From contig NZ_CANLSU010000005.1 of assembly GCF_947493875.1 (NCBI RefSeq), positions 124,001 to 188,000 of the forward strand: 64,000 nucleotides of DNA, given 5' to 3'. Below are positions 7,793-55,637 of this stretch, piece by piece. The stretch comes from an uncultured Marinococcus sp. Lineage in GTDB: Bacteria > Bacillota > Bacilli > Bacillales > Marinococcaceae. Under the pieces are notes generated by a model. That model saw nothing but the letters and a program-made list of their open reading frames with translations, made no database searches and was not told where the DNA came from. Position 1 is the first letter of the stretch. The number at the start of each line of letters is the position of its first letter. Position numbers and translations under genes: made by a program.

Positions 7793-8830
7793 ATGAAGCA
7801 TTCGAAATATTGGATTGGTGCCGGAGTACTTTCGCTTAGCGTTTTAAGTGCCTGTGGAAGTGGCGGCGGGGACAGTTCATCAGGCGGCGATGGCGGCGGA
7901 GGCGAAGAAGAAAACTACGAGCCGGATTCCTCACTTGAAATTGTTGCACCCGCCGGTGCTGGCGGCGGATGGGACACCGTGGCCCGTTCCGCTGCTGAAG
8001 GCCTCGAAAAAGAAGGCATCGTTGATCAGGGTATCGGCGTCGTTAACCGGGAAGGCGGCGGCGGAGCCAACGGCTGGTCCTACATTTATAACCAGGAAGG
8101 CAACCCGGAATATTCCTTTGTAGCGTCTCCTCCCCTTCTTCTCGTGCCGCTGAACGGACAGTCGGAATACAACTATGAAGATTTCACCCCTCTGTCGAAT
8201 ATGATTGCCGACTACGGTGCGTTCGCTGTTACGGAGGATTCAGAGTGGAATGACTTAAATGACCTGTTTGAAGATATGAAGGAAAATCCGGATGACATTA
8301 CCGTTGTTGGCGAATCCTCCCCGGGCAGCATGGACCATATGCAGTTTGCCAAAATTGCAGCCGGCGCCGGCGTTGATCCTTCGACGATTAAATACGTATC
8401 TGCCCAGGACGGCAGCGCCCTGACCAACCTCTTAAACGGCCAGGCGGATGTATATTCGACCGGCATTACAGAAACTGTCGAGCAGGTCAGAGCCGGAGAT
8501 GTCAAAGTACTCGGCATTACAGCCGAAGAGCGTCTTGAAGGTGACACGGTCAGTGAATTCCCAACCGCTATGGAACAGGGCATCGAAGAAACATTCGTCA
8601 ACTGGCGCGGATTTTTGGGACCGCCAAACATGAGTGATGCCGAAATTGCTTATTACGAAGAAACGTTTAAGGAACTCAGTGAATCTGAGTACTGGCAGGA
8701 AACGCGCCAGTCCTACGCCTGGGAAGAAAACTACATGGACAGCGAAGAATTTGAAGAATTTTTAGCTGAGGAAGAAGAATCCATGCAGGACCTGCTTGAT
8801 GAAGTAGGCATCGACCGGGGCGGCGAGTAA
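7793..8830 (+). CDS. Tripartite tricarboxylate transporter substrate-binding lipoprotein, TctC family
   Basis: A 345-residue extracytoplasmic binding protein that would capture a carboxylate and deliver it to TctB/TctA. A lipoprotein signal peptide ends in LSAC with Cys21 as the anchored residue. A Gly/Ser/Glu linker follows. The mature part has the family motif APAGAGGGWDTVAR and NREGGGGANGW, and the loop ending LGITAEERLEG. The C terminus is very acidic. The ATG is preceded by AAAAAGGGGG. It is the first gene of tctC-tctB-tctA and follows a CitA/DcuS-type two-component system, so citrate, another tricarboxylate or a dicarboxylate is a likely ligand; the exact one is unknown. A hairpin after the gene may raise its expression over tctBA. 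Confidence 0.92.
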   Translation: MKHSKYWIGAGVLSLSVLSACGSGGGDSSSGGDGGGGEEENYEPDSSLEIVAPAGAGGGWDTVARSAAEGLEKEGIVDQGIGVVNREGGGGANGWSYIYNQEGNPEYSFVASPPLLLVPLNGQSEYNYEDFTPLSNMIADYGAFAVTEDSEWNDLNDLFEDMKENPDDITVVGESSPGSMDHMQFAKIAAGAGVDPSTIKYVSAQDGSALTNLLNGQADVYSTGITETVEQVRAGDVKVLGITAEERLEGDTVSEFPTAMEQGIEETFVNWRGFLGPPNMSDAEIAYYEETFKELSESEYWQETRQSYAWEENYMDSEEFEEFLAEEEESMQDLLDEVGIDRGGE

Positions 8831-51933: not shown

Positions 51934-52362
51934 CTATAGCTCCTGTTCAAACGGATACAGTCCCTCTGCTTCAGCTTCATCGGCATAGTTGTTTAAAATT
52001 TCTTCAAGTATATCCTCTGCATCTTTTCCTTCTGCCTCAATACCGAGCGCCTGAGCGGCCTGGGTAATTTCTACTTCCCTTACGTCCGCCATCATCTGCG
52101 ACACATCTTCAGTAACATCCACGCCGTAAACGGCTGCTTTTTCCTTCCATTCCGACAGAAGCACTTCATCAATTACGGTCTGTTCATCCTTATCCTTAAT
52201 AGCTATGCCGTAACGCTCTGCTTTTTCCATTAAATCATTCTCCCGGATATCTGTGCCCATCCGTTCTATTTCGGCTTCACTTTTTTGCGCCGATACATTG
52301 GCCGGCAGGGCCACACTCGACAGTATACAGGCGGTAATGATGGCATACATCCATTTTTTCAT
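51934..52362 (-). CDS. Small secreted protein next to an OmpR-type two-component system
   Basis: A 142-residue protein with a clear signal peptide (MKKWMYAIITACILSSVALP, cleavage likely after NVSA). The mature part is highly acidic and helical, with two similar segments, MEKAERYGIAIKDKDEQTVIDE (read in part) and ITQAAQALGIEAEGKDAEDILEE, suggesting an internal duplication. I do not recognise a family. The frame begins at 52401; AAAGAGGTTGAAC fits the ATG at 52362. It follows the histidine kinase gene by 86 bases in the same direction and may be an accessory or target of that system. Confidence 0.75.
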   Translation of the reverse strand: MKKWMYAIITACILSSVALPANVSAQKSEAEIERMGTDIRENDLMEKAERYGIAIKDKDEQTVIDEVLLSEWKEKAAVYGVDVTEDVSQMMADVREVEITQAAQALGIEAEGKDAEDILEEILNNYADEAEAEGLYPFEQEL

Positions 52363-52448
52363 CAGTTCAACCTCTTTTTTATCCATAGAGTGAATTCTCA
52401 CTTCATCTTATAAGTGAAACATGTCAGGAAGAAGTCAGGCAGAGGGTT

Positions 52449-53924
52449 TTACATTACATCTGTTTGTTTTTCATGATTCGTTTCCTCGTCCGGGAAGTCC
52501 TGCGGCAGTTCAAATACAAACACTGTTTTTTCCGGCCGGCTCGACTGCAGATACAGATCACCGCCAAGCCCCTGGGCGATGAGTTTACTGAACGGCAGGC
52601 CGAGACCGAGGCCGTGCACGCTGTACTTTTTATTTTCTCCCCGGTAGAAGCGCTCAAACACCAGCAGCTGTTCCTCCTCGTCAATTCCCATACCGCTGTC
52701 TATTACTTCAATTGCCACCGTTTGATCGTCTTTTTCTCTACACTGAATAGTTAAAGTTCCTTCTTTATTCATTGCCTGGTTTGCGTTATTTAAAAGATTG
52801 ACCATAATCTGCTGAAAGCGCATGGGATCAGTATAAACCGCATGTGTCTGTTCGCCGTACAGCTTTTGGATATCCAGCCGGTCCGTGTCATTTGAAATCG
52901 ACCACTGGTGAATAACTTCGTTCAACAGCGACTCCAGCGTCAACGGCTGCATGTCTGTGGGCACACCCTGAGAGGAAAAGGTATTAAATTCCAGCAGGTC
53001 AGCGATCATGTTGCGCATTCTCCCCGTTTCAGCCAGCGTCACGCTCAGGAATTCCTTTGCCTCATCTCCCGTCACTACATCGTCTTTGACTGCCTGGACC
53101 ATCCCGCTGATGGAAGTAACCGGCGTTTTTAATTCATGCGTAACACCGGCAAGCAGCTCCGTCCGCATGCTCTCGAGCTGGCCCAGCCTCGTAGTCATAT
53201 CATTAAAGCCGGTAACCAGTTCATCAACCTCCCGTTCCTTCGCTTCAGTATCGATGCGTATCGCGTACTTTTCCTCTTTCACACGCTGAAAGGCTTCAGC
53301 AATCTGCTTGATCGGGCGCAGCATCCGCTTGGAAAGGATGTAAATTGTAAGCCATCCCAATATGGCCAGGCTCACCAGCAGAATGCCGACCAATTGGTAC
53401 TGGCCGCCAACTTTAATTAATGAATCAGCCGGCTGGACAATGACCACCCATCCTTCAAAGGAACCGTTGTCGTTCTGGATACGTGATTTTACCAGGTACT
53501 GCTCCAGACTCCCCTGCTGCACCTTCACCGTCTGCGGGCCGGACTCGAGAAATGAATCCGGAAATACAACGGGATCCTGATAGAGGGAATTTCCGAACAA
53601 CGAGTTGGACACGATGTTTCCGTTATTATCCACGACATAAACAAGCGGCTCTGTTTCAATATCGAATGCCTGCTGGCGCTCGCGCACGTAGGCGGCAAGA
53701 TCGGCATTTAAGCCAATCGAATTATCTTCTGCACCTGCTAAATCCTCTGAAATTTCATCCGCCAGAAACGAGGTAACATTCAGTCCCCGTTCAAGATTGT
53801 AGGAGCGGAGCCAGAAAAATGAAATCAGGCCAACGATAATTAAACCGATGCACAGCGTAATAAAATAGCGTGTCGTCCAGTAGCGGAGCAGCGAAACTTT
53901 TTTATCTTTATTCCTCTTTAACAC
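52449..53924 (-). CDS. Sensor histidine kinase with HAMP domain, EnvZ/PhoR-like class
   Basis: A 491-residue membrane kinase. Two transmembrane helices (YFITLCIGLIIVGLISFFWL and VGILLVSLAILGWLTIYIL) flank an extracytoplasmic domain of about 130 residues. A HAMP domain (RMLRPIKQIAEAFQRV) and the HisKA motif THELKTPVTSISGMVQ follow. The HATPase boxes are NLLNNANQAM, DSGMGIDEEE and GLGLGLPFSK. The GTG start overlaps the end of the response regulator gene by 17 bases; the ribosome binding site is weak (GGGG, 10 bases). The signal is unknown. The co-directional small secreted protein gene suggests envelope sensing. Confidence 0.9.
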   Translation of the reverse strand: MLKRNKDKKVSLLRYWTTRYFITLCIGLIIVGLISFFWLRSYNLERGLNVTSFLADEISEDLAGAEDNSIGLNADLAAYVRERQQAFDIETEPLVYVVDNNGNIVSNSLFGNSLYQDPVVFPDSFLESGPQTVKVQQGSLEQYLVKSRIQNDNGSFEGWVVIVQPADSLIKVGGQYQLVGILLVSLAILGWLTIYILSKRMLRPIKQIAEAFQRVKEEKYAIRIDTEAKEREVDELVTGFNDMTTRLGQLESMRTELLAGVTHELKTPVTSISGMVQAVKDDVVTGDEAKEFLSVTLAETGRMRNMIADLLEFNTFSSQGVPTDMQPLTLESLLNEVIHQWSISNDTDRLDIQKLYGEQTHAVYTDPMRFQQIMVNLLNNANQAMNKEGTLTIQCREKDDQTVAIEVIDSGMGIDEEEQLLVFERFYRGENKKYSVHGLGLGLPFSKLIAQGLGGDLYLQSSRPEKTVFVFELPQDFPDEETNHEKQTDVM

Positions 53925-54606
53925 TGAGCTGATACCCCACTCCCCGGAGCGTTCTGATTTCTCCTTCTTCCACCGGCCAGTTTTTCAGCGACCGGCGGAT
54001 CCGCTTGATGGCCAGGTCCACTGCGCGGTCGCTCCCTTCGTAATCGATGCCCCATACATGGGAAATCAGCTGCTCCCGGTCAAAGAACTGATTTGGATGA
54101 TTGCCCAGAAAAATAAGCAATGAGAGGTCCCGCGGTGTCAGGTCCAGCTGCAGGCCGTTCAGTGTCACGGCGTACGCCTTTTCATCAATGACCAGGCTGC
54201 CGAATCGTTTAAGGTACTGCTCCTCTTCCGCTGAAGAAGCTGTTTTACCGCTGCGCCGAAGTACAGCCTGGACGCGGGCCACCACTTCATCTCCTTCAAA
54301 CGGCTTCGGAATGTAGTCGTCCGCCCCGCCGTCGAATCCTTTTAAACGATAGTCCACATCTCCGAGAGCAGTCAGCATTATACACGGGCAGTCGCTCGTG
54401 TTCCGGATATGTTCAAGCACCGCCCAGCCGTCCCGGCCCGGAAGCATGACATCAATTAAGGCCAAATCAAATGCTCCGCGGTCGAACGTCTCCACGGCTT
54501 CGTTTCCTTCATATATTTGAGTCACTTCAAAGCCCGCCTTCTGAAGATAGGCCCGAAGCACCTGACTGATTGATGTTTCGTCTTCAATTACAAGAATCGA
54601 GCTCAT
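53908..54606 (-). CDS. OmpR/PhoB-family response regulator
   Basis: A 232-residue regulator. The receiver has EDETSISQVLRAYLQ, the phospho-acceptor Asp in LALIDVMLPGRDG, the conserved Thr/Ser in CIMLTALG and Lys in DDYIPKPF. The C-terminal winged helix shows LTPRDLSLLIFLGNHPNQFF, REQLISHVWGIDYEGSDRAVD (in parts) and RTLRGVGYQL. AGAAAGGAGAGAG precedes the ATG. It is the first gene of a regulator-kinase-(secreted protein) unit. Confidence 0.93.
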   Translation of the reverse strand: MSSILVIEDETSISQVLRAYLQKAGFEVTQIYEGNEAVETFDRGAFDLALIDVMLPGRDGWAVLEHIRNTSDCPCIMLTALGDVDYRLKGFDGGADDYIPKPFEGDEVVARVQAVLRRSGKTASSAEEEQYLKRFGSLVIDEKAYAVTLNGLQLDLTPRDLSLLIFLGNHPNQFFDREQLISHVWGIDYEGSDRAVDLAIKRIRRSLKNWPVEEGEIRTLRGVGYQLSVKEE

Positions 54607-54689
54607 AGATGCTCTCTCCTTTCTCTATGTACTTTCATTATAAATCAACGAAGCGCAGGAACAAACGGGTTTTCCCTGCGGTCCGGTAC

Positions 54690-54955
54690 AAAAAAAAGAC
54701 CCTCGCGGGGGAACGAGGGCGTACAGCTATATGAATCTAGGGGGTAATTCCATGAAGAGTGCACTACCCGAGTGAGTGCAGCTCTTAAGCCGAGCAATAA
54801 TACCCAGCTAAAACACAATTGGATTGTTTGCATAGGGCCATCGTATCCACATGGCTTTTCGGCTTCTTCTGCAGTTACAGGACGATCAATCGTTGTTCTA
54901 GGGGGGTCAACATATTTAAGGTCCTGGTAACCAGTAAGCTGCATATCCTCACCTT
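54690..54955 (-). ncRNA. Candidate structured RNA with C-rich hairpin loops and a strong terminator
   Basis: On the minus strand a stem CCCTCG/CGAGGG with loop TTCCCCCG is followed by eight T (54690-54720). Upstream are GAAT/ATTC with loop TACCCCCTAG (54733-54750), an 11-bp two-part stem AAGAG-TGCACT (54755-54786), a long-range pair AAGCCGA/TCGGCTT (54787-54793 with 54859-54865), and GTTG/CAAC with loop ACCCCCCTAGAA near 54890-54910. An outer stem (CTGCAG.TTAC.AGGAC near 54870-54884 with its partner near 54921-54943) closes the 5' block. A 99-codon frame (ATG at 54944, AAGGTGAGG in front, hydrophobic segment LCFSWVLLLGLRAAL) runs through the locus but past the terminator. It may be chance or a small membrane protein. 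No firm promoter was found. Confidence 0.4.
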
Positions 54956-55209
54956 TTCTTCAAGTGTGCCAGCCATTTGTTGCACTTTCCCTTTCGACAA
55001 TGCAGCAAATATAGGGCGGAAGAAAATGATGATTCGATGCCGTTTACGTGGCAACTGTATCAGAAGCCGGCTTTCACTCCGCTTTCTAAGAAGTTAATCA
55101 TGGTGCGGCGCGGAAGTGTTATAAGCCGTGGCGGCCTCTACATTTATTACTATAAGTGGTTTGTGTGTCAGCAAAATGTCAAAAGAAAATTTTTTATAAA
55201 AAAAGTGGA

Positions 55210-55311
55210 GACATGCTGCCCAGACGCTTCAACCGGCTGGCGTAAGCCTGAGAGGAATCGTCGCAGACGATGACCTCAGGATGAAGCCAACGGCTTGAAC
55301 GGCTGCATGTC
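55210..55311. repeat. 102-base imperfect hairpin (structured RNA or palindromic element)
   Basis: GACATGCTGCC and GGCTGCATGTC close the structure with one mismatch. Inside, CTTCAACCGGCTGGC pairs imperfectly with GCCAACGGCTTGAAC, then CCTGAG with CTCAGG, and ATCGTC with GACGAT around GCA. On the minus strand seven T follow four bases after the outer stem and its TCCA. Function unknown. Confidence 0.5.
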
Positions 55312-55572
55312 GAAACTGGATTCGAAAAACGCCCATCTATTTACAGGAGTCTCTAATCACAACGCGGAACGGACCGCAGCCGGTAACATTTGGAGCTGGA
55401 CAATTAAAAAAAGTGTAGGCATGCTTTATAGAAGTTCGATAGGCAGCAATGCCTCCCTTTTCCCGTTTTCTATACCTTTACTATATCCTATAATAGGGTG
55501 GTCCGCCGGTCGTATTTCCGCTGAAGCCGGAAAAAATTTACGTACGGATTTTCATAAACATTCACACAGGAA

Positions 55573-55601
55573 TTGCAAAGCATTCTGCTCTTTGTCATAT
55601 T
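55573..55601 (+). promoter_or_regulatory. Candidate sigma-A promoter of manA
   Basis: TTGCAA (55573-55578) and CATATT (55596-55601) are 17 bases apart, 36 bases before the manA start. Confidence 0.5.
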
Positions 55602-55637
55602 AAATAAGAGAGACACAACTATAAACGGAGGCTGAAC

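Follow-up and report, generated by a model that had tools for sequence, protein, structure and literature searches.

The minus strand of the window, the 64,000-nucleotide stretch of DNA from an uncultured Marinococcus sp. that was analysed, carries a two-component system consisting of a response regulator and a sensor histidine kinase, followed by a gene for a small, apparently secreted protein. Directly in front of the response regulator gene lies a unit of ~55192-54690 on the same strand, which comprises a promoter, a predicted RNA of ~453 nt and a terminator, and which is present in all five Marinococcus genomes. The coordinates of the features are collected in Table 1. An earlier note, made from the sequence alone, had placed a candidate small RNA at 54690-54955. 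That locus proved to be real, but it covers only the 3′ ~60% of the RNA, the start of which lies ~190 nt farther upstream. The main idea of the note, that the locus specifies a structured regulatory RNA and is not a protein gene, was corroborated by a conserved promoter of its own, a terminator, a conservation exceeding that of the neighbouring coding gene and the disruption of the overlapping reading frame. We therefore regard the locus as a convincing RNA gene that is absent from Rfam and represents a known type of regulator.

Table 1. Features of the RNA locus, its two-component system (TCS) and related sites
Feature	Position	Strand	Remark
TCS box TGACATTTTGCTGACA	55166..55181	minus	direct repeat with a period of 11 bp; presumably bound by the neighbouring OmpR-family response regulator
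-10 element TATAGT	55149..55154	minus	exactly 11 nt past the box
RNA, ~453 nt	54690..55142	minus	5′ end inferred from the -10 element; 3′ end is the T-tract
C-rich hairpin loop 1, ACCCCCCUAG	54898..54907	minus	within invariant 44-nt run 54915-54872
C-rich hairpin loop 2, UACCCCCUAG	54737..54746	minus	within invariant 65-nt run 54764-54700
Intrinsic terminator	54690..54720	minus	C-rich loop 3, UUCCCCCG (54713-54706), and eight T
Conserved TATAAT	54637..54642	minus	between terminator and response regulator gene; within invariant 26-nt run 54650-54625
Response regulator gene	53908..54606	minus	OmpR/PhoB type (Response_reg, Trans_reg_C)
Sensor histidine kinase gene	52449..53924	minus	HAMP, HisKA, HATPase_c; relatives in Bacillaceae and neighbours
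Second box and -10 of the genome, TGACTTCTTCCTGACA ... TAAGAT	52405..52437	minus
142-aa apparently secreted protein	51934..52362	minus	behind the second box; LGIxxxGK-like repeats; signal peptide by eye
GGGGG in ribosome binding site region of gene starts	window 1825, 6945, 7793, 23229, 31160, 33373, 45877, 48179
Site-B C-rich stretches	L064:13229-13480, L065:12105-12360, L066:13628-13880, L067:12106-12360, L068:12099-12350, L109:13850-14125, L052:3985-4258		Alteribacillus and Salibacterium
Hydrolase-like gene with CTAGGGGG	L146 (G000:C2:162565); relatives L148, L153		in G000, G101, G001, G002

In the minimum-energy fold of 54690-55142, the three C-rich stretches singled out in the earlier note, ACCCCCCTAG, TACCCCCTAG and TTCCCCCG, indeed occupy separate hairpin loops on the minus strand, which contain ACCCCCC, ACCCCC and UUCCCCC in the RNA. 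Loop 2 is predicted to be largely paired in M. halophilus and partly paired in G101, a second genome of the same species. When the RNA was shuffled with preservation of its dinucleotides, 254 of 300 shuffles contained no hairpin loop bearing CCCC, 46 contained one and none contained two or more. Furthermore, the predicted fold was stable relative to shuffles, both for 54690-54960 (z -2.61; 4 of 200 shuffles at least as stable) and for the 451 nt of 54690-55140 (z -2.91; none of 100 shuffles as stable). The terminator stem at 54720-54699, followed by eight T, was found as described, and the terminator scan by itself performed at chance level (2 found versus 1.9 expected). Stem conservation, which the note had set as a test, does not emerge from covariation among the five Marinococcus genomes: none of the 142 pairs was altered on both sides (shuffle mean 0.6), the proportion of paired cells was 98.6% against a shuffle mean of 98.7, and no pair-count measure rose above its shuffles. 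Changes were seen in 23 of 284 paired and 24 of 170 unpaired columns, a contrast that is weak because the structure was derived from the same sequences.

Alignment with the other Marinococcus genomes revealed a sharp upstream edge of conservation at ~55192. The promoter itself was 94.8-100% identical, whereas identity over the 200 nt upstream of it was 19.9-67.8%, with 39.7% in the same-species genome G101. This variable stretch, 55195-55480, contains a large inverted repeat by eye and occurs in a single copy in the genome. The downstream edge was softer, identity over 54690-54640 being 100, 88.2, 92.2 and 78.4% in G101, M. halotolerans, M. luteus and M. halophilus, respectively, after which the response regulator gene follows. 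Over the region of the earlier note, identity to M. halotolerans, M. luteus and M. halophilus was 98.5, 97.4 and 94.1% (94.1-99.3% over four genomes), compared with 92.1, 90.9 and 86.9% for the response regulator gene, the 4-fold sites of which differ at 28, 30 and 36%. The DNA of the RNA thus evolves more slowly than the adjoining response regulator gene. Runs that are invariant in all five genomes surround loop 1 (44 nt), loops 2 and 3 (65 nt) and the promoter (56 nt), and another one lies in the 5′ domain (54 nt, 55083-55030).

The RNA is present in a single full copy in the genome, next to two other matches of ~23 and ~41 bases. A DNA search of 29 genomes of the family, with E values up to 1, returned some match in 27 of them, but full-length matches were confined to the five Marinococcus genomes; the remaining 24 had short matches or none. 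Outside Marinococcus these short matches, including one in Bacillus piscicola (G009) that appears to lie inside a gene, were taken as chance, save for those that three Alteribacillus genomes gave with the promoter stretch. A further DNA search of 101 genomes returned four Marinococcus genomes and a 25-base match in G072 (L005), which appears to lie within a coding gene. Likewise, a covariance model of the 3′ 145 nt of the RNA, run with stricter filters, matched four of 397 genomes of the order, all of them Marinococcus. By blastn, no match to the RNA locus was found in phage and plasmid collections. No Rfam family matched the whole window at the gathering threshold, and at E values up to 5 the only matches in the stretch 54600-55620 were weak ones; these, to FuFi-1 and HOXB13-AS1_2, fall outside the RNA and on the opposite (plus) strand.

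A scan for the sigma-70 consensus did not detect the promoter of the RNA. At the place of the -35 region it carries a direct repeat, TGACAT-N4-CTGACA, and we searched for this box at TCS loci of Bacillaceae and neighbours (Paenibacillus, Brevibacillus), 80 of 94 loci (1.58 Mb) having been retained when the adjacent kinase's sensor region was used for scanning. On the plus strand, TGACWTNNNNCTGACA occurred 59 times, spread over 45 of the 80 loci; the minus strand had 9 occurrences, and the reversed and complemented controls gave no match. TGACA repeats with a 6-nt gap were found 64 times on the plus strand, against 3, 1, 0 and 5 for gaps of 4, 5, 7 and 8 nt. In addition, TANNNT follows exactly 11 nt past the box in 65 of 68 sites. 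Because of these strand and gap counts relative to the controls, and because of the fixed spacing to the -10 element, the sequences identify the box as a promoter element that accompanies this two-component system; across Bacillaceae and neighbours (L062-L141), a two-component regulon can be recognised by TGACAT-N4-CTGACA-N11-TANNNT. Binding of the box by the OmpR-family regulator would be the simplest interpretation.

A search of the 29 family genomes for TGACATNTTGCTGACA with at most one mismatch gave 23 matches, distributed over 17 genomes, versus 3 for the reversed pattern; several of the 23 appear to lie within coding sequence. For 12 of these 29 genomes, chiefly those in which the TCS locus had already been seen, we combined box and -10 element and found 24 sites versus 3 for the control, and 23 of the 24 were at the TCS locus. 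The combination is thus rare in these genomes: ten have two sites, G008 has three and Bacillus piscicola has one. In the four Marinococcus genomes of this search, the two sites lead to the RNA and to the ~142-aa apparently secreted protein behind the kinase, respectively, and both boxes are also present in Marinococcus genome G101. We set aside three boxes that lack a -10 element (G000:C1:9286, G101:C1:640914 and G001:C6:78498), each of which is situated inside a coding sequence or at its end.

The genes behind the box in other genera give a hint at the signal. In Cytobacillus, the box stands before trypsin-PDZ (HtrA-like) protease genes (two tested against Pfam, the others recognised by eye), in Brevibacillus before one HlyD-like gene (Pfam-tested), and in Bacillus and Peribacillus before a small protein that we take to be Spx/ArsC-like. 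From these genes we infer that the system probably responds to cell-envelope or protein-secretion stress. Genes for small secreted repeat proteins also stand behind the box, and repeat proteins similar in look to the 142-aa LGIxxxGK-type protein precede the regulator gene in other genera. In L130, the long stretch between the box and the response regulator gene looks like a decayed gene for a secreted protein.

A second C-rich RNA candidate, here called site B, was found in Alteribacillus and Salibacterium. In all seven genomes searched from these two groups (g3 and g6), the boxes serve an operon encoding a small protein, the regulator and the kinase, and a C-rich stretch. The latter, ~250 nt long and terminator-bearing, is located downstream of the kinase gene and before other genes; it contains CCCCC and UUCCUCCUU stretches and, on its 5′ side, a hairpin AAGGATAG...CTATCC that is harder to discern in A. 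persepolensis. A site-B model of the 3′ 139 positions scored 78-141 bits in exactly those seven of the 29 genomes, and at most 33 bits in six others. The weak hits (G011, G007, G020, G010, G003 and G101) were discarded; none is preceded by a box with a -10 element, and in G011 a TGACA-N6-TGACA located 30 nt upstream lacks the -10 element and apparently lies within a gene. When the site-B covariance model R1 was run with E values up to 10, no match was obtained in the window, L062, L063 or L102. Since this model is without a match in the Marinococcus loci, the two RNAs are not detectably related in sequence, while they appear alike in promoter, locus and C-richness. An exception is Alteribacillus iranensis, whose locus L074 carries the operon box but gives no match to the site-B model. 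Moreover, a C-rich RNA is not universal among the relatives, as exemplified by the single box of Bacillus piscicola. By eye, an internal hairpin of site B is swapped between GCUGA/UCAGC and GCCGG/CCGGC; the automatic fold left this hairpin unpaired.

With moderate confidence we favour the reading that the Marinococcus RNA is a trans-acting small RNA, a main output of the adjacent two-component system, that blocks G-rich ribosome binding sites. In this mechanism, the two direct repeats of the -35 region, spaced by 11 bp, would be bound by the OmpR-family response regulator, which would recruit RNA polymerase to TATAGT. A non-coding RNA of ~453 nt would then be made, ending at the intrinsic terminator, and its three C-rich loops would seed pairing with the G-rich ribosome binding sites of mRNAs. 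Such loop-first pairing would block the translation of the target mRNAs.

The earlier note had offered a dual-function RNA or a broken small gene as alternatives on account of a 99-codon frame. This frame (54645-54944) exists and, as the note had said, passes through the terminator; its ATG is preceded by a plausible AAGGTGAGGAT. Nevertheless, it is broken by indels in three species, M. halotolerans and M. luteus being one base short early in the frame and M. halophilus another base short later, and it has a stop codon in the same-species genome G101. A codon-position bias is absent as well: the differences from the three species fall 12, 16 and 13 times on the three codon positions, compared with 21, 6 and 182 in the response regulator gene. 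Among frames of at least 10 codons, three (11, 12 and 14 codons, two of which overlap) keep a constant length in all five genomes, and a scripted check saw no ribosome binding site upstream of any of them. The alternatives of the note are therefore unsupported, and we consider it highly improbable that the locus is a protein-coding or dual-function gene, be it with the 99-codon or a smaller frame.

The best rival is a cis-acting leader, because the RNA lies directly before the regulator gene and at the place where the sister genera have their operon promoter. The 453-nt RNA would then serve the response regulator-kinase operon as its 5′ leader, and the terminator would be an attenuator with partial read-through. 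Consistent with this, the RNA and the operon share their orientation, the T-tract lies ~84 nt upstream of the response regulator gene, and the sister genera carry a box at the head of the TCS operon, where the RNA is found here. However, the predicted folds, which were made without a systematic search for alternative pairing, retain the terminator stem; the conserved TATAAT between the terminator and the response regulator gene is a possible promoter of the TCS genes' own; and the Alteribacillus and Salibacterium loci that were read have their C-rich RNA downstream of the kinase gene, before other genes. On balance, we judge a leader to be unlikely. A structured RNA that binds a protein or another RNA as a sponge, without pairing to ribosome binding sites, would fit the long and strongly folded 5′ domain with its invariant 54-nt run, which is devoid of a C-rich loop, as well as the lack of a target signal in the CTAGGGGG search described below. 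Against this stand the invariance of the three C-rich loops in the five aligned genomes and the CCCCC/CCUCC stretches that the sister RNAs, not detectably related, likewise carry. We regard this explanation as quite improbable.

Returning to the trans-acting small RNA, the note had pointed to AGGGGG-type ribosome binding sites in this DNA. They do occur: of 56 start regions in the window, chosen by a script whose selection favours strong Shine-Dalgarno sequences, 8 contain GGGGG, and among these 8 is the site at 7793, the tctC example of the note. In a ranking by pairing energy, made without a control, several of the 56 starts pair well with the loops. A search for targets with the complement of the loops, as the note had advised, stayed below its control. 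CTAGGGGG-N3..11-ATG had 15 hits in the five genomes, five of them being the antisense of the RNA itself, whereas the reversed pattern had 24. The computational evidence is unusually clear for the regulator, and there is none so far for targets. CTAGGGGG, which is complementary to loops 1 and 2, is found at the start of a hydrolase-like gene in four of the five Marinococcus genomes. This gene is a possible target, a matter on which we make no claim.

Among known systems, the best reading by analogy is that the RNA may work like the CiaR csRNAs, LhrC, RoxS and RNAIII, without detected homology to them. The closest one by architecture is CiaR with its csRNAs in Streptococcus. CiaR is of the OmpR type, and htrA belongs to its regulon. 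The CiaR csRNA promoters have a direct repeat with an 11-bp period that precedes the -10 element by a short, constant distance, and the csRNAs bear terminators, expose anti-Shine-Dalgarno sequences in unpaired regions and have low overall sequence similarity to each other (PMC3091779, PMC4438229). The 11-bp period, the set -10 distance, the terminator-bearing small RNA and the placement of anti-Shine-Dalgarno-like sequence in regions predicted to be unpaired are shared with Marinococcus, whereas the boxes differ, NTTAAG-N5-TTTAAG for CiaR versus TGACAT-N4-CTGACA here (PMC3091779, PMC4438229). With up to two mismatches, the CiaR box had 7 matches in the window versus 5.7 expected, none of them at 55181-55149. 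Several short csRNAs are described for CiaR, as opposed to the single 453-nt RNA of Marinococcus.

LhrC1-5 of Listeria are described as controlled by LisRK, with three redundant C-rich sites, one of which is in the terminator loop; these RNAs, 105-121 nt long and multicopy, repress via the ribosome binding site (PMC4132741, PMC8079631). C-rich sites in a loop and in the terminator loop are features of the Marinococcus RNA too, where the exact string UCCC occurs in the terminator loop only. The LisR-responsive element is reported upstream of -53, in contrast to the Marinococcus box, which would lie at ~-39 to -24 (PMC4132741). Unlike the multicopy and short LhrC RNAs of these accounts, Marinococcus has one copy of ~453 nt.

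RNAIII, 514 nt long, has a response regulator of another DNA-binding class and is represented by a model in the Rfam library. It resembles the Marinococcus RNA in length and in having C-rich hairpin loops next to a TCS. The Marinococcus RNA, however, has no Rfam match, no conserved peptide was found in it among frames of at least 10 codons, and it runs in the same direction as the TCS genes, whereas RNAIII is divergent. RNAIII of Staphylococcus aureus is both adjacent to and activated by its TCS, and its C-rich hairpin loops 7, 13 and 14 touch G-rich mRNA sequences (PMC2837412). RsaE/RoxS is similarly reported to be activated by a TCS (ResD/SrrA), with several C-rich regions that pair with Shine-Dalgarno sequences (PMC4409812). 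The Marinococcus RNA is much longer, and the RsaE model (Rfam RF01820) matched none of the five Marinococcus genomes, while the positive control in Bacillus subtilis was detected. The parallel with RNAIII and RsaE/RoxS that the note had drawn thus holds as an analogy in the C-rich loops, but not as kinship, given the RsaE result and the absence of an Rfam family from the window. Pairing of C-rich sequences with ribosome binding sites is reported for RNAIII, LhrC and RoxS (PMC2837412, PMC4132741, PMC4409812). Among the titles and abstract openings that searches of open-access literature listed, none described the RNA, the box, the circuit or the two-component system.

Tentatively, and as a conceivable rather than a probable generalization, we propose for this halophilic branch of the Bacillaceae a TCS regulon of about two promoters, one serving the system itself or a secreted partner and the other a single C-rich effector RNA, in which sister genera have come to use unrelated RNAs in place of this one. 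Since the regulator and the box would have been kept while the RNA was replaced, the circuit would be conserved and the RNA interchangeable. If true, Marinococcus, a non-pathogenic and salt-loving organism, would harbour a new family of long, C-rich RNA regulators whose promoter box is clearly defined, and a simple circuit would be suggested in which the chief output of a stress sensor is one RNA. The plugging of different RNAs into one circuit in neighbouring genera would also bear on the origin and replacement of small RNA genes. The box furthermore provides a direct route to the regulon of a widespread two-component system, which elsewhere precedes HtrA-like protease genes. The single box with a -10 element that the 12-genome search placed outside the TCS locus (L208, G008:C1:778475) precedes a 239-aa gene that is VTC-domain-like by eye.
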